Of a DNA stretch of 64,000 nucleotides, positions 1,527 to 20,441 are shown in pieces; position 1 is the stretch's first letter, and each line of letters starts with the position of its first letter. This stretch comes from Chaetoceros tenuissimus (Eukaryota > Bacillariophyta > Thalassiosirophyceae > Chaetocerotales > Chaetocerotaceae), in NCBI GenBank assembly GCA_021927905.1, contig BLLK01000032.1:124001-188000 (forward strand). The letters are read 5' to 3'. Both the position numbers and the translations under genes were made by a program. The notes below the pieces were generated by a model. That model was not told the origin of the DNA. It searched no databases and saw nothing but the letters and a program-made list of their open reading frames with translations.

Positions 1527-2935
1527 ATGTCAAATTCTAGCAATACCGTAGAAAAGAAGAAATTGTCATTCGCTGAAATGGCAGCTGCAGGAACCTCCAT
1601 CACTGTTTCAAAGATGCCCATCGTGCAAGAAAATCACGTAAAGCCTACTACTACTCATAAGAGTAGTAACGACAGCAACGCCACCGATTCTACAGATGGT
1701 AACAGCACTAGTTCCATTTCATCTTCCAGCTTACCAAGTAGGGAGCAAAAGTCAAGCAAAACCCAGGTCCCAACTTCTGTCCCAAAACCTGCTTCAACTC
1801 CGGCGAAAAATCCATGGAAGATCGACGTCGTCAAGAAAGAGTTGGAAGATTCAAAAGGACTTGGAAAAGATGCTCCAACACCAGCTGAGAGTAAGGATAT
1901 GAAACCTGTAACTGTTGAAATATTTGATGAGAAAGTAACTTCATCAGATAAAAAGGAAAAATCAGAGATAAGGGCCAAAGGTATGTATACACATGAGTCA
2001 TTGTTGTTTAGCATATTTTGAAAAGCAAGGTCTCACTAAGATTATTTTTTTAACTAGCAAACAAAAATGCCACAGGACCTACAAAGAACAATGGTAAAAA
2101 GAATAGAGTATCTGGACCGAATACTGAAGCACCTCAAAGACAAGGTACGTCGTCTTCTGGTGACAAGGAGAAGAAGAAACCGAGTCAAAGCCGAGATGCT
2201 GGTAATAAGGAGAAAGATGGCGCAAAGAAGAAGGAAACATCCAGTCAAGCAGATGGATCCAAGAAGCAAAGTACTGAAGATAGAAAACACAAGTCTGAGG
2301 ATATACCTACCTCTACTGGTCAAAACAACAACCAGCGAGGCAAATCCAACCAGAAGAAATCAGGAGCAGCTTCAGGAAACAATCACAAGAAGTTTAGCAA
2401 TCAGAACAAAAAGTCAACGAAGACCAACACGAAGAAAAAGCAAAACAAGCACAAAAGTAAATCTCAGAAGAAGAAGAACCAGATCAATAATGCTATGTAT
2501 ATTCCTTCACCAAAAGAGTTAGCGGCGTTCAAAAAGGCAGCTATCAAGCAAATTGAGTACTTCTTTTCAACTGATGAGCTTGTTAAAAACATATATATGA
2601 GGAAACAGATGGATGTAGAGGGGTACCTTCCAGCGGCAGTTGTATTCAACTTCCCTTCTGTCTTGTCTTATTGTGTCCCATACTATGACTTGCTTGAAGA
2701 GTTGAAATCTAGTGATGTGGTCGAGGTTGACACTGAGAATGAATGTTTGCGCTTGAAAGGTGGTGAAGAGGTGTACAAAAAGTGGCTCTTCCCTTCCGCA
2801 GACGGAACATTAGGATGTCCGAAGTGGCTGATTCCAAAGATCGAACAAGAGGATAGGGAGGAGAAGAAAGAGGCTGAAATCTCTGTAGAGAAAGTTTTTG
2901 ATGAAACTAGGGCAAACGAAGAAGTGGAATCATGA
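1527..2935 (+). CDS. La-motif (LARP-type) RNA-binding protein
   Basis: Two exons (1527-1980, 2058-2935) joined by a GTATGT...TAG intron restore one frame of 443 residues. Residues 1-150 are Ser/Thr/Pro-rich. The middle (about 150-320) is Lys/Gln/Asn-rich and disordered. The C-terminal third holds a La motif, with QIEYFFSTDELVKNIYMRKQ followed by GYLPAAVVFNFPSV, the aromatic and basic pattern that binds RNA 3' ends or poly(A) in La-related proteins. A short tail ending KKWLFPSADGTLGCPKWL follows. No DM15 repeats are visible, so this is a LARP1/LARP4-like protein reduced to the La motif. Probable role is cytoplasmic mRNA binding and translation or stability control. The ATG follows an AAC-rich leader. 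The paralogue class is uncertain. Confidence 0.85.
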
Positions 2936-3083
2936 GATTTTTAACACAGCACTATGCTGCATAGGTAATATCATATATAATGGAAAATACAAATGATGCA
3001 TTATTAGCCTAGTATTAAGATCTACTTTGACTATGTCTAGTTACATTTGCGAGTTACTAATTATGTACTTTATATTCATTCAA

Positions 3084-5499
3084 TTAATTGTTTTTCTTTT
3101 CCTCCTCTAGTTTCGCAGAAGTTTTCATGTTACCAATAGATTTTGTAGCCGTTTTCACAATTAGAGCAGATGCTGCTGATAGGGCGATTGGAATCTTCCC
3201 AGTATAAATTCCTGCTCCAACACAAGTGATAAGAGAGCAATCAACAAAGAAGGACGTGTTCTGTTTCTTTACTTCAGCTCTGGTCAAATCACATATGTTT
3301 TGGCAAATAGCAATGGTGCGATCGAAAGAAGGATCTTGAAATCCAGATGCCTTTGCTTTCATCGCCTGTTTTGCTACAGATTTTGCAAACTTGTAAAATA
3401 CTGCATGTACTCCAGCGACATCATTTGTGTTGTTGATTAATTTGCATGAAAGTCCTTTTCTTATTTTGACCACACCAGTGAAGACATCTTCATTATGATA
3501 ACATTTGTCAAGGGTTGCAATCGCCATGACTTGAGGAATAGCACAGAAGCGGAACACTTCAGCACAGTGAAGCTTGGATAGATATTTCAAACAGTCAGGA
3601 ACCAAATGAAGCGCATCTGTTACCAAATCATTAAGGCAATATAGTGCCTGCTTTTTTGCTTCAACGTCATTTTGATTTGCGAAATAACCCAGGTCCCCAG
3701 ATTTCGAATACTTTTTCCATACACTTTGTGGCCAGAATGCACGTCCATCTACATAATCTTCAAGATAATCACGAATAATGTTCGTCTTTTGAAGGAAAAG
3801 TCCCATTTGGTCACTCAAAAACAATTCATCAGACATAGATGCATCCTCCAATCCTGAAGCAGCAAAAAGACGACTAAGACCTTCACCAACAAGACCGGCC
3901 ACGAAATGGCAATAACGATTATATTGTTCAACATCAGCTGTTCCTTGTCCCAAATCCTTTCCAACAAACTCAGCCATACCTTCAGCCATACGCTTAGTGA
4001 TATCAGCAATGACTTCTTTAGACTCAGGTTTCAATGCCGCGTAAACAGAATGGCATTTTGGGAATTCCTGAAGCAATCGCTTTTCATCTGCTTCTCCAAC
4101 ACCATCCATGGACCAAGCTGGATCTTCAAGAGCAGTTTTATGGAAGTTCATAAGATGCTTGATTTTGATTTCATTACTTTCAAATGCAGTCATATCATCT
4201 TCTACAGTATCTAGTGCTCTCAAAACAAGGTAAAAGATAAGAACATCAACCAACAATGTAGGTGGAAGCTGACGAATCACCGCCGCAAACGAGCGTGAGA
4301 CCTTGCAGAGAATGTCATCACAAAATTCCAAATCAGAAGCATTAAATGTTTGCTTCACAAAGTCAGACTCAAGATTCGACTTCAATGGCTTGATTTTAAG
4401 CAATACCAATGCGGACCAAATCTCATCAATATGGGACAATTGGGAAAATTTCGATTCTTTATGTGTCTGAATCTTTCCGTATGCTCCTTGCTTTTTGCTA
4501 AAGGATTGCATGAATTGCAACGGTTAGAATATGCACAGAATATGATACACTATCAATAATATCACGAAGAAACTTACGATGAATCTCCAACAGCTTCGTC
4601 ATTAAATTGTGGCTTTGCATTTCCAAGTCCTCCAAGGTGTTCCTTAGGCGGGTCAAATCTCTGAATAGATTCAAAATCGCAGAATTTATCAGTTTCCATG
4701 GTCTCTTTCAAGTCATTCCACCATCCATTCTTCCCCAGAACCCACTTCTTGACAATAATTCTAAACCAAGGAGAAAATAAAAGATTCTCGTCATTCATCA
4801 TTTCCAACAATTTCTCCTGAGTTACCCACTTCACATCTTCTACTTCCTCCTTGTTCAAATTCAATGTGATTTCACTCTTGTCCTTGACAACAAAGAAAAG
4901 TACATAATCAATTTCATGTTCCCCCCATGGCGCCTTTGGTCCATGAGTAACAGTATCTGCTGCCCAGTAGTGCAATCTTGTGAGAAACTTGAATTTTTCA
5001 AGTGGAAGTTCTGCTGGTGGGATTCCAAGTTCATGCTCTAGCTTACGTACAGCAGCATGTTTTACACCTGGAACTGTACCTGCTGCTACTTCAGCTGGTG
5101 AATCTACTTCAGGAGGATCCATTCCATGAAGCGGGTGAGAGCAACATGTGTTGGTCCATACCTATGGAAAGTATAGAGTGAGAATACAGCATTTTGATAA
5201 GATCATACAGGAGTAGGATGCATTAACATACATCACACACTCAATGAACAACGACTCACCGATGGAAAAGTAATCTTATCAGTGGCTCTCTGCTGGAGCA
5301 AAAGCTCATTGGTGCTCTTGTCAAAGATGAAGACACTGAATGCTCGATGCAAGACACCAGCAGGCTGCTTCATGTTGAATTCATGAGATCCACGCTTGGA
5401 TTCAGAACCAATGACGTTATCATCATTGTCGAGAACAAGTACTGTGTCCTTCTCCATGAAGTCCATTTGGGACATTGCTTTTCCATCCCACTTGCTCAT
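3084..5499 (-). CDS. IDI-SQS: Isopentenyl-diphosphate isomerase-squalene synthase fusion
   Basis: Three exons read on the minus strand: 5260-5499, 4578-5161, 3084-4497. The second intron (4498-4577; GTAAGT donor, TTCTAAC branch site, TTTAG acceptor) is phase 2 and joins the isomerase to squalene synthase without a stop, giving about 745 residues. The IDI half (residues 1-275) is a Nudix-fold type I isomerase with TNTCCSHPL (catalytic Cys near 86) and GEHEIDYVLFF (catalytic Glu). The squalene synthase half has both Asp-rich motifs, DTVEDD (near 371) and DYLEDYVDGR (near 518), and a C-terminal hydrophobic segment typical of ER anchoring. The protein would convert IPP to DMAPP and condense two FPP to squalene for sterols. 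No targeting presequence precedes the IDI. Fused IDI-SQS proteins are known from diatoms and haptophytes. Confidence 0.93.
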
Positions 5500-14884: not shown

Positions 14885-16460
14885 ATGTTTCAGAGATCAG
14901 CTGGTTTCATTTCGCGAACGGTGCAGAGGGCGTCAAAGGACGCAAAAGGGGCAACTTCAGCTCTAATCCTTGCTGGAGTTACTGCTGCAACTGTCGCCAT
15001 TGATTACACACAGAACAAAAGAACCTCTACAGAATCTGATGTTTCTTACGCAGTGCAACAGGAGCTCCCTGTATTTGCATCCTCGTCAGATCCATTGATT
15101 GGTGCATCAGAAAAGATTTGGTCAGGAGAAACTGATGAACAGGTCGCCTTCAAAATCACATCACCAGACAAAATTAAGGCATCTGAAAAGACGGAATTGT
15201 CAAAAGGAATGAATGCACTGAACCGTGTCATCTCTCCTGCTCACCCCGTGGCTACATCAGCTACTCAATTGACTCGTCAAGAGACGAAATGGCTTCAAAG
15301 AGAAGGTCATGTCACTACCAAAAAGATGTACTTCTACAAGAAGCCAATGGTAAAATCTAGTCTTCAACAACGGGTATCCATTTTTGCTGGACCATCTTCA
15401 GAACAACTTGGTGGAGATGTCGCACAGCTTCTTGGTATGCCACTTAGTTCTATGCAAGTGGGACAATTCGCAGATGGTGAAACTGCTGTGAAGTTGGATA
15501 ATGCTGTTAGAGGAAAGGATGTCTTTGTTATTAATTCAACTACGTCAACAGATCACTTGATGGAATTGCTGCTGACTGTATCGACATTGAGAAGAGCATC
15601 TGCAAAGAACATTACTGCTATTATTCCATATTATGGATACTCCAGACAAGATCGCAAAGCTGGAATGGCTAGAGAACCTATAGCTGCAGCTGATGTAGCT
15701 AAAATGCTTGAAACTGTTGGTGTTGACAAGGTCATGTGTTTAGATCTTCATAATGATTCTCTGCGTGGATTCTTTAGTCCTGATGTTCCAGTTGAGCATC
15801 TTCTTCCAGGACCAGTAGCTGCAGCTTATTTCCATGAAGAGCTAGAAGACCCTTCAAAGGATCCTGAAAAGTTCCCAGATGTTACCATTGTTGCAGCACA
15901 TGAAGGACATGTCTACAGAGCAAAGGAGTTCAGAAAGGTGCTACAGAAACTTAGTGGAAAAGAAATTGGATTAGCATATATTAGCAAAGTGAGACAATAT
16001 CCCGGACAAAAGAGTTATGAACCATACTTGGTTGGAGACGTGGATGGTCAGACTTGTATTGTGGTAAGTCCAATTTAACTGCTATCTACACTGTGAATAC
16101 ATTTTTTGTACTGACTCTTCTTCCTTATAGATTGATGATATTATCAACACTGGGGAGACCATGAAATTATGTGTAGAACAGCTCAAAGCTTCCGGAGCAA
16201 AGAATGTATATGCATGGGCAACACATGGTGTATTTGGTGAGCACAATAAGAATGCAGCTACAAAGTTACAGGAATGTGACAGTCTTGATTACGCATTAAT
16301 TTCAAACACAGTGACGACAAAAGATTTGCCTCAAAAAATCAAGAAACTTAATGTTGCGCCATTGGTTGCGGAAGCAATAGCAAGATCTCTTTACAACCAA
16401 AGTATCACTGGTATTTTAAATCTCGACACCATGGGCGCTGACAAAGACGCAGGAAAGTAA
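14885..16460 (+). CDS. Ribose-phosphate pyrophosphokinase (PRPP synthetase)
   Basis: Two exons (14885-16063, 16131-16460), phase 0, giving 502 residues. The catalytic region starts near residue 160 ([20 protein letters not shown]). It contains [23 protein letters not shown] (ATP binding, flexible loop) and [11 protein letters not shown]. The PRPP-binding loop is [12 protein letters not shown], close to the usual DDxxDTGGT but with E for the second Gly. The enzyme makes PRPP from ATP and ribose 5-phosphate for nucleotide, His and Trp synthesis. The N-terminal ~155 residues are extra. They begin [20 protein letters not shown], an amphipathic mitochondrial-type presequence, followed by a hydrophobic patch and a Ser/Thr-rich spacer. 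The body is firm; localisation is inferred. Confidence 0.93.
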
Positions 16461-16784: not shown

Positions 16785-19659
16785 ATGTGCAAACCAAATC
16801 CTTTAGCAAAACCTAAAGAGAAAGAAACAAGCATGAATGGTGGCATCTCTTTCTCCAGTGCAGTGCTAATGACATTGCTGGCATCTTCCCTCTCATTTTT
16901 TGGAGGCAGAATATTCAGTATCCATTACTTAAAGGATGCCAATAATTGGGTTCAAAATCCAGCTGTCTCCCCGGTTAAGATACTAGATAAGCTTAAACCC
17001 AAAAGCTATGGTGCTACTATCTCTAGTAAAATGCCCATGAGTCCTCATAAAATGCCAATGAATGCTAGACATGAAACTCTAACCCCTCCAAAGCCTATCA
17101 AAGGGAAGAGACCACCAAAAACTAAATACACTTCTGTCGTGTCTAAACTTGTTCATGTCATGTCAGAGAGATATGCTGATATTCATCTCCATGATCATAT
17201 CGATGATCTCAGAGACGAAGAAGAAGTACACAAGGGAATATGTAACTTCAACACTGAAGGAGATCACGAGTGTTTGATTGATAAATTTACACAGGAAGAC
17301 TATGATGCCGCATTTGCATTGGAGAAAGAAGATGGCGATGACAACGACGACGATGAGGAGGAGGAAGAAGAAGAACATCTTCCTGCAGGTCAACATCTCA
17401 TTATTGACATGGAAAATGTGAATCATGAATTTTTGGATTCAGCTGATAGACTCGCTGAAGCTATGGTTAAGGTAGTCAATGAGTCTCAGCTCACTTTGCT
17501 TTCTTATCATTGTCACAAATTGATCCCAATGGGTGTATCCTGTGTTGGTGTGCTTCTAGAGTCTCATATTTCCTTTCATACATGGCCAGATAAGGGTGTC
17601 ATTGCATTAGATCTTTTCACTTGTGGGAGTGGATTGTTGGTTCCGGTCCTTCCCATCATTGAGAAATTGTTTGCAATTCCGATGGCTGGAGTAACAGAAA
17701 AATCTTCAGCGCTTTCAAAACCTCGTATGATCTGGTCACACAAATTGAGAGGTTTTGGAAACTTTGATGATAATCCACTTCACGGAGACCTTGGCGAGCT
17801 TGTGCTGGAAAGTCATTCTTATGAATACAAAAAGGAGATTGCTGCTGTAAAATCTCAATTCCAAACTATCGATATTTTCGACATTGTTGACAATCGCGAC
17901 GATTATTATCGATTTATGAAAAGTAAAGAAAATCTAGACTCTTATGAGGCCAAGAATTATGAAGAAATGTTTAGACCAAACAGACAAATTTTTCTAGGTG
18001 GTGTTTTGCAGTCTGAGTCTGAAAGTGAATCATCATACCACGAGGCACTAGTTCAACCAGCAATGTTTACTCATCCCAATCCTCGTCGAGTTGCAATCAT
18101 AGGAGGAGGGGAAGGAGCAACGTTGAGAGAAGTTTTGAAGCACGACACAGTTGAAAAAGTTAAAATGATCGAAATTGATGAAATCATGGTTCAAGCTTCT
18201 AGAAAATATATTCCAATGTTTTCAAACTGTACTTTCATCGAAGGAAGTGCTGAATGGTGTGGCGACGATGAACGCACGGAAATGCATTATACAGATGCAC
18301 TGAAATGGTTTATGGATAGATTTGGTGAAGGTGCAACCGTTGATGAAGATCCTTTTGATGTTATCATAATGGATGCATTGTAAGTTGTCTATTTGATATT
18401 ATCGCTATTATTACAATTTTACAATTTCTCATACATTTGCTGCTTATGATAGAGACCCTGAGGATGATATTCCATTTGCAGCAATGTTATATGATGATGA
18501 TAACTTTGCTACAACTTTATTCAATGCTCTCACAGAACAAGGCATTATAGTTTTCCAGCTTGGAGAAGCTCCTGATTTCACAGCCCCAGCTTCACAACAC
18601 ACACAAAGTCGAAGACGGGACGGTTTTATCAAACATCTGTCCAATGCTGAGTTTGATATGATGCATGTGTACGATGATGGAAATTGTGGCTTCAATGGAC
18701 CTTGGTCATTTTTGATAGCTATGAAGGATGATAATCTTGATGAAGATTTCAATCATAACCAGCTTGAAGTTGATCTTAAGATTAAGAAGAGACTCAGGAG
18801 AGCAACAGATGGGAAGCCAATGATGGACTACTTTGATGGAGCTCTCATGCAGTCGTATCAATATCCTCACAAAGTTTGGGAAACTGTTTACTGTCGCTCA
18901 GTACCAACTCCAGAATCCTGTCATAAATTTGAATCAAAGAAAAATGTTCCTATATCTGATCTTGAAGTAAAGTTAAGCGGCTTTGGAGAAGATAGTGGTC
19001 GTGGAGTTTACACAAAGGTTGACATAGAAGAAGGCATGACCGTGGGTGGAGATGTCCTCAATCTTGTACATATGAGAGGACTATCATTTTTCTATCTATT
19101 GAAGTATTTCAAAATCTCAGATGAACATAAAAATGTATATGATTATATCAACGGATACGGATATGAAGAAATCATCAATGTAAGTGAATCAAAGATGCAG
19201 TAGAAATGATGCAAGCTCCCCGCATGTTTTCTAATGATTTCATTTTCTTCTTAGGGTGGATATGATTGGCTGGTTGAACCATCCATTATGACGTTTGTGA
19301 ACCATGGATGCAACGGAACATTCAATTTTATTGGTAGGGATAGCTATGAAGGTTGGAAAAGTAATGATCCGTATGCGACAATTACTGAACAAAATTATAC
19401 TAGCCATGAGTTTGATCCTTTCAGGGCAGAATTCCATGATATCTATCAAGATCGTCATCCAATGAAACCAAATATCGACGTTGCAATGAGAGATATCAAA
19501 GCTGGAGAAGAAATACTGAATAATTACGTATTTTTCGACACGAACGTCGAAACGTGGGAAGCAAGTATTGCAGAACTACAAAAATTATGCAGTGGAGAAA
19601 GAGTAGGAGAAATAACTCAAGCCGAACGTAGTGAAGTGAAAAAGTCAAGTAGTGATTGA
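16785..19659 (+). CDS. AdoMet decarboxylase-aminopropyltransferase-SET domain fusion (long-chain polyamine enzyme)
   Basis: Three exons (16785-18379, 18453-19179, 19255-19659) join in frame to 908 residues. Residues about 17-42 form a hydrophobic signal anchor, which would put the rest in the secretory lumen. Residues 200-300 are a bacterial-type S-adenosylmethionine decarboxylase. ESHISFHTWPDKG contains the Glu259-Ser260 processing site that yields the pyruvoyl group, and the catalytic Cys is in DLFTCG, so this domain looks active. Residues 310-640 are an aminopropyltransferase (spermidine synthase fold) with VAIIGGGEGATLREVLKH and DVIIMDALDPEDD. Residues 660-890 form a SET-like methyltransferase with FVNHGCNGTFNF and KAGEEILNNY. 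The combination could make and N-methylate long-chain polyamines for silica deposition, as proposed for diatom fusions by Michael (2011). Confidence 0.92.
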
Positions 19660-19673
19660 TTTTATATTTAGAA

Positions 19674-20441
19674 TTATGAAAGTAAAAAGCAAACAAAATA
19701 AATTAAATTTGGCAAATACATCCAAGTAGGAACTTGTAGAAATGTTCCAGAGTTTGTTTCGGTACTTGTTGTAGGAGGCAAACTTGGAACTTCTATATCC
19801 CAACCACATTTGCAACGAGTTGAAAAATCGTTTTGTATGCTCTCGCAATCTAGACTCATGTCCGTGTTTACATCTTGTTCAATTTTCGCACAGGATTTTG
19901 AAAATTGATTTCCTTGTGACGATTGAAAAGTAACGGTTTGATTTGGTTTCGAAAGAATAGAGTCACCGCAAATCCTGCAAAATCCATCAAAAAAGCCAGG
20001 TGCGCTTGTATCACAGCCGCAATATGCTCCAAAAGATTTCTGATAAGAAGGACAATCCATTTCAAAGTCATTAGTGGCATCTGTTTGCCATTCATCGCAT
20101 GTTTTTTCGCCGACAACTCTGTCTGGGAATGGCAGTTCGTTTGCGTCTCCGCACAATTTGCATTGGAATTCTTCAGGTTCCTTATTTGGATCATCGCAGT
20201 TACAAAACGTTTCAGCAGCTGAGTGAATATTTGTACAGTTTGTGATGAGTCCATCGGCTACCATTTGCTCTGCCTGTGAACATGAAACAAAAGATCCATC
20301 TGATAGGGAAAACTTCACGCTTTCACCAGCAAGCTGAGTATGATTTGGGTTTGGACAGAAAGTACAGGTAGCCTCATTGGCAAGAGTTGTTGCTTGTATC
20401 AGCGCAATGAAAAAGCTCAGTCCTTTACGAATATATCCCAT
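19674..20441 (-). CDS. Secreted protein with three six-cysteine repeats, possibly GPI-anchored
   Basis: Single exon, 255 residues. The first ~21 residues (MGYIRKGLSFFIALIQATTLA) form a signal peptide. Three repeats of about 55-60 residues follow, each with the spacing C-x2-C, a Cys in the middle, a Cys about 15 residues on, then C-x-C: CTFC...CNC, CKLC...CGC, CRIC...CKC. The cysteines could form three disulphides per repeat. N-glycosylation sequons (NQT, NCT) are present. The C terminus is a Thr/Ser linker (PPTTSTETNSG) followed by a hydrophobic tail without a basic stop, which fits a GPI signal. I do not recognise the repeat as a named family. Likely a cell-surface or cell-wall protein. Its 3' end lies 14 bp from that of the polyamine fusion gene. 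Confidence 0.78.
   Translation of the reverse strand: MGYIRKGLSFFIALIQATTLANEATCTFCPNPNHTQLAGESVKFSLSDGSFVSCSQAEQMVADGLITNCTNIHSAAETFCNCDDPNKEPEEFQCKLCGDANELPFPDRVVGEKTCDEWQTDATNDFEMDCPSYQKSFGAYCGCDTSAPGFFDGFCRICGDSILSKPNQTVTFQSSQGNQFSKSCAKIEQDVNTDMSLDCESIQNDFSTRCKCGWDIEVPSLPPTTSTETNSGTFLQVPTWMYLPNLIYFVCFLLS

Follow-up and report, generated by a model that had tools for sequence, protein, structure and literature searches.

An AdoMet decarboxylase–aminopropyltransferase–SET fusion gene in Chaetoceros tenuissimus

Gene structure and domains of the fusion

The window analyzed here is a 64-kb stretch of Chaetoceros tenuissimus DNA (64,000 nucleotides, GC content 38.7%). Positions 16785 to 19659 of the forward strand hold, from start to stop, a gene whose product combines an AdoMet decarboxylase (AdoMetDC), an aminopropyltransferase (APT), and a SET-like domain. 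Its three exons (16785-18379, 18453-19179, and 19255-19659) splice to 2,727 nt that encode 908 amino acids with zero internal stops and matches to three Pfam families. Several other frames surround the gene: two at 14885-16460 on the forward strand resemble, by eye, a ribose-phosphate pyrophosphokinase gene, and one at 3084-4520 on the reverse strand was named by eye as resembling squalene synthase. A Cys-rich frame with a hydrophobic start (19674-20441, reverse strand) is convergent with the fusion gene, the two stops lying 14 bases apart.

Both introns of the initial annotation are found exactly where it placed them, with GT-AG borders. Intron 1 (18380-18452, 73 nt) opens with GTAAGT and ends in AG; a paralog on contig C17 has no intron at the same place. 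Intron 2 (19180-19254, 75 nt) carries three in-frame stops, so a protein translated from a transcript retaining it would stop at residue 782 and lack the SET motifs NHxC and GEExxxY, both of which are encoded by exon 3. The AdoMetDC-APT junction lies within exon 1 and the APT-SET junction within exon 2, which makes the fusion independent of splice-site choice. The open frame and the three Pfam families bear out the triple fusion that had been proposed, and we confirm the gene as a three-domain diatom polyamine-enzyme fusion. A wrong gene model or assembly that joined adjacent genes would fit the weak SET score described below; however, both domain junctions fall inside exons, and the C17 paralog repeats an AdoMetDC-APT-SET-like order on a different contig, so such an artifact is hardly credible.

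The decarboxylase domain occupies residues 204-282 (17394-17630), matches Pfam PF02675 (AdoMet_dc) at 3.8e-23, and is of the class 1B type. Aligned with the Thermotoga maritima enzyme (PDB 1tlu, E = 3.3e-16), residues S252, E259, S260, H265, and C280 correspond to S55, E62, S63, H68, and C83, which have catalytic or processing roles; all five are kept here, and the catalytic positions are also kept in the paralogs on contigs C14 and C17. The Glu and Ser of the predicted self-cleavage site E259-S260 (17559-17564; LLES starts at residue 257) and the putative catalytic C280 (17622-17624) are each present in all 23 aligned decarboxylase rows. A model of residues 196-320 built from seven sequences reached a mean pLDDT of 82.0 and a pTM of 0.75. 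Its best PDB match was 1tmi, the non-processing S63A mutant of T. maritima AdoMetDC (E = 4.1e-9, TM 0.70, 33% identity); fold and catalytic positions are thus the same, although the T. maritima protein stands alone. The intact Glu-Ser processing site and Cys noted initially are borne out at these positions, and retention of the five T. maritima residues agrees with the suggestion that the domain is potentially active.

Class 1B AdoMet decarboxylases cut themselves before the Ser. A cut at E259-S260 would yield chains with computed masses of 29.1 kDa and 74.3 kDa, so that any anchor would reside on the smaller chain and be split from the APT-SET portion on the larger. Reading the translation upstream of the domain reveals an acidic stretch (residues 180-197, 17322-17375), which is shorter in the C14 and C17 proteins; a polycationic product could bind there.

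The APT domain (residues 415-580, 18027-18597) is split by intron 1 and matches Pfam PF01564 (Spermine_synth) at 1e-30. It contains GGGEGATLRE at residues 440-449 (18102-18131), as originally described. The core GGG(D/E)G appears in 36/36 aligned APT rows, while D530 and P534 of the D-x-x-(D/E)-P motif are kept in 35 of the 36, with one gap. Sequence comparison with the PDB places 2e5w first (5.7e-30), followed by 7xif (1.3e-27); thermospermine synthase (6bq2) matches at 3e-21 and the human spermidine synthase structure 2o05 at 2.4e-19. The nearest solved relatives are aminopropyltransferases of bacterial and archaeal type. A linker with the pattern FDGxxxxxYQ...VYCRxxPxPxxC (residues 659-688, 18832-18921) connects the APT and SET domains. 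It is common to the three paralogs and present even in C14, which has no SET domain.

The SET-like domain spans residues 714-865 (18997-19527), is split by intron 2, and contains NHGCN (residues 790-794, 19300-19314, with NHxC at 790-793) and GEEILNNY (residues 858-865, 19504-19527), the latter corresponding to GEExxxY. Its match to Pfam PF00856 is borderline, falling short of the 22.4-bit cut-off when the whole protein is searched (19.6 bits) and exceeding it when the domain is submitted by itself (24.3 bits, E = 4.2e-5). Among 84 SET matches in the genome at E up to 1, we fetched 30 loci and built a profile from the 28 that remained once loci with internal stops and duplicates were removed, excluding the window's own match. 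Against this profile the window domain obtains 25.6 bits and the window protein minus the domain -1.7 bits; among 2,000 shuffles, 1,812 of which reported a score, the highest value was 9.5 bits. As a BLAST-type query of the genome, the domain retrieved itself and one match at E = 0.22, and the C17 tail was not found. Against the PDB, the SET region gave by sequence two weak unrelated matches and no SET protein, and a search of viral contigs for SET relatives returned no pattern match. A single-sequence fold of the region, computed on a sequence that still included intron 2, its stops treated as residues, had a mean pLDDT of 30.5. Profile and motif evidence supports the SET homology claimed at the outset, for a domain that appears divergent with NHxC and GEExxxY intact.

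Paralogs and related fusions

A search of the genome (41,027,912 bases in 68 contigs) identified three AdoMet_dc matches, namely the window gene, C14, and C17, together with one separate eukaryote-type decarboxylase on C54 and 12 Spermine_synth matches at 11 places. The separate decarboxylase and separate APTs could supply housekeeping spermidine without help from the fusions. The C14 and C17 gene models were built here from homology and GT-AG sites. C14 encodes 716 amino acids with 52% identity to the window copy from residue 196 on, keeps the decarboxylase and APT, and ends soon past the linker without a SET domain. C17 encodes 788 amino acids with 38% identity to the window copy and likewise keeps the decarboxylase and APT; its SET-like tail scores 19.8 bits against the genome SET profile and lacks NHxC and the final Tyr. 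Of the three copies, only the one in the window accordingly has a SET domain that looks intact.

A 40-row APT tree groups the three copies in one clade (100/100), with the window copy and C14 as sisters (98/91) and a long-branch warning for C17. The simplest reading of these sequences is that the SET domain was ancestral to the three fusions, with loss in C14 and decay in C17; alternative histories are possible. Because two of the three paralogs carry no intact SET domain, the fusion is evidently kept without one, and SET methylation is not required for it. The SET domain of the window copy could by the same token be a passenger, either inactive or often removed through retention of intron 2, leaving AdoMetDC-APT as the working product. 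The weak SET score, the state of the domain in C14 and C17, and the termination of the intron-retaining product at residue 782, ahead of both SET motifs, would all accord with this. The motifs NHxC and GEExxxY are nonetheless intact in the window copy and its frame is open through exon 3, and we consider a passenger role unlikely.

The genome also combines SET-like and APT domains in the reverse order. The locus L033 (G000:C59:650000-657000) holds at 1571-5140 on the forward strand a 1,189-residue frame in which a SET-like part (17.3 bits, below the Pfam cut-off) precedes an APT part (58.6 bits). Its APT motif reads GGGDSMLLHE, and no decarboxylase was detected by profile. An upstream exon, read by eye, begins like a signal peptide. 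A dead decarboxylase suggested by eye in this protein was dropped, as the profile reported no domain. SET also adjoins APT in SET-first order at G000:C32:623195-624743 and G000:C33:1318075-1319665, which are probably two further SET-APT fusions.

In 2011, Michael reportedly described in FEBS Lett AdoMetDC-APT fusions of diatoms, a subset of which carry a histone N-methyltransferase domain, as candidates for long-chain polyamine (LCPA) synthesis and N-methylation. By its domains and their order, the window gene is a further member of this class, in keeping with its first assignment. It shares with those fusions the bacterial-type decarboxylase, the APT, and here a SET domain, and its hydrophobic N-terminal stretch may correspond to the signal peptide of the class; the cysteine pairs described below and the loss of SET within one genome are contributed by the present analysis, whether or not the 2011 paper already has them. 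PMC3820600, PMC12029483, and PMC6356823 relay the class, the last stating that the functions of diatom fusions remain to be characterized. A 2025 article (PMC12803844) likewise calls for study of diatom APT fusions and puts the number of APT fusion proteins in Nitzschia inconspicua at 32, and a spermidine synthase-AdoMet decarboxylase fusion was upregulated when aluminum was added (PMC12533330).

More distant proteins share parts of this architecture. Bacterial AdoMetDC-APT fusions (L078, L079, L080, and L082) have the same domain order in one frame. Human spermine synthase (3c6k), the rank 6 fold match of our decarboxylase model (E = 1.3e-3), likewise places an APT behind an AdoMetDC-derived N-terminal domain; according to PMC12803844 its decarboxylase part has lost activity, whereas the window copy keeps the residues. 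A single-sequence search of viral contigs for APT relatives gave 4 pattern matches, none confirmed. When named genomes were searched for relatives of the fusion, one of 234 matched stretches was confirmed, an APT-containing frame in which no decarboxylase segment was found.

Paired cysteines and the N terminus

Across the 646 gap-free columns of the three paralogs, seven Cys are invariant: 243, 253, 280, 482, 492, 679, and 688. The six besides the catalytic C280 form three pairs spaced 9 or 10 residues apart, an arrangement reproduced by 51 of 200,000 random column sextets in a draw that ignores the clustering of conserved columns. C243 and C253 (17511-17543) are present in 3/3 diatom copies. 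Both lie on the two strands of a predicted hairpin in the decarboxylase model (C243 on strand E43-51, C253 on E55-62), equidistant from the three-residue turn that joins their strands, a placement that would be expected of a cross-strand disulfide. The second pair, C482/C492 (18228-18260), sits in an insertion of the APT domain in all three copies, and the third, C679/C688, falls in the APT-SET linker, also in 3/3 paralogs, with the comparison made among these alone. A further pair in the N-terminal region, C153/C163 (17241-17273), has both members in the window copy and C14 and neither in C17.

Outside the diatom, the comparison draws on one bacterial phylum, on viral contigs, and on T. maritima. 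We sampled 149 genomes of that phylum, 83 of which had a match, and took loci for the best of these; rows were aligned at E below 1e-6 within set ranges, with identical segments omitted. L070 and L075 duplicate L069 and L066 and are not counted; L102 and L073 contribute no APT row to the counts, and L082 no decarboxylase row. Cys occurs at position 243 or 253 in none of the 20 bacterial or viral decarboxylase rows, one of which is gapped at 243 and three of which (L078-L080) hardly differ over the stretch shown; in T. maritima AdoMetDC, Phe and Gly occupy the positions of the diatom C243 and C253. Column 482 is gapped in 33/33 bacterial APT rows, and Cys appears at 492 in one of the 33. Unlike the diatom proteins, the bacterial AdoMetDC-APT fusions therefore lack the pairs at 243/253 and 482/492 in the aligned rows, the decarboxylase part of L082 being unaligned. 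Cys pairs that are kept in all three paralogs, the two compared more widely being absent from the relatives, suggest disulfides and hence an oxidizing lumen, and so lend the secretory route support that does not depend on the N terminus.

The N terminus itself carries a hydrophobic stretch (residues 21-39, 16845-16901), predicted to be a secretory leader or anchor, with a mean hydropathy of 1.70, a moderate value for the best Kyte-Doolittle 19-mer. Both paralogs have a comparable stretch in their first 45 residues, at 1.82 and 2.26. When the whole protein is shuffled, the first 60 residues reach the window copy's own value in 32 of 2,000 trials and the paralog values in 20 and 2 of 2,000; when only the first 60 residues are shuffled, 1.70, 1.82, and 2.26 are reached in 23, 164, and 78 of 2,000 trials. 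Charges flanking the stretch show no agreed topology (the window flanks were read by eye), and the four N-glycosylation sequons of the window protein were judged uninformative. In all three copies a Phe occurs near the end of the stretch (SFFGG, SFFAG, and AFTIG), which to us is reminiscent of the diatom plastid motif, and a basic stretch follows the hydrophobic segment in the window copy. The N terminus may accordingly be a signal anchor, but it may also be a signal peptide that is cleaved off or a presequence for the plastid.

These features leave some room for a plastid or cytosolic enzyme, in which the stretch would belong to a bipartite plastid presequence or be non-secretory and the Cys pairs would act as redox switches. 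The Phe in three copies, the basic stretch next to it in the window copy, and the flanking charges without a clear topology are what such a location might produce; the short-range Cys pairs, three to four in number, resemble structural disulfides more closely, however, and the literature class was described for silica polyamines, so that we regard a plastid or cytosolic enzyme as improbable. The location argument suggested here places most weight on the Cys and not on the N terminus. The initial annotation had routed the protein through the secretory path to the silica deposition vesicle: the secretory route gains support from the paired Cys, and the vesicle is a possible destination.

A candidate route to silica polyamines

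The explanation we favor, at a probability of roughly 55%, is that the gene encodes a secretory, self-cleaving AdoMetDC-APT-SET enzyme that makes LCPAs for silica. The hydrophobic N terminus would route the protein into the secretory pathway, and in the lumen short-range disulfides would form at three or four Cys pairs, as their conservation implies. By homology to class 1B enzymes, the decarboxylase would cut itself between Glu259 and Ser260 into chains of 29 and 74 kDa that stay together. AdoMet would then be decarboxylated, and the fused APT would repeatedly add aminopropyl units to an acceptor, which may be either a polyamine or the side chain of a lysine. The SET domain would spend another AdoMet in methylating amines of the product or of a carrier protein, the least certain step, which draws on homology. 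The end product would be a long-chain polyamine for silica formation. Counting against this explanation, a decarboxylase in the lumen means that AdoMet must be brought there.

The substrate of the SET domain divides this scheme further. SET enzymes as a rule methylate proteins. The same enzyme in the same place could thus use its SET domain as a protein lysine methyltransferase on silaffin-like proteins, coupling lysine elongation to methylation; PMC11554505 and PMC11151724, which cite Nemoto 2020, point this way in describing diatom-specific SET methyltransferases thought to regulate substrate-protein methylation and LCPA function, and LCPAs occur both free and bound to silaffins, as stated in PMC4483651. 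The physical fusion to a polyamine-making unit instead suggests a shared product, and we hold methylation of silaffin-like proteins to be a possibility on the doubtful side. We are equally tentative about the most specific form of the favored explanation, a lumenal, self-cleaving, disulfide-stabilized polyamine factory that would spend AdoMet twice, its SET domain methylating a small polyamine and not a protein.

The gene bears on the question of which enzymes build and methylate the LCPAs of diatom silica. The paired Cys would allow the compartment to be tested at little cost, and the three fusions of C. tenuissimus, one with a SET domain, one with a decayed SET domain, and one with none, form a natural series in which methylation can be separated from elongation.
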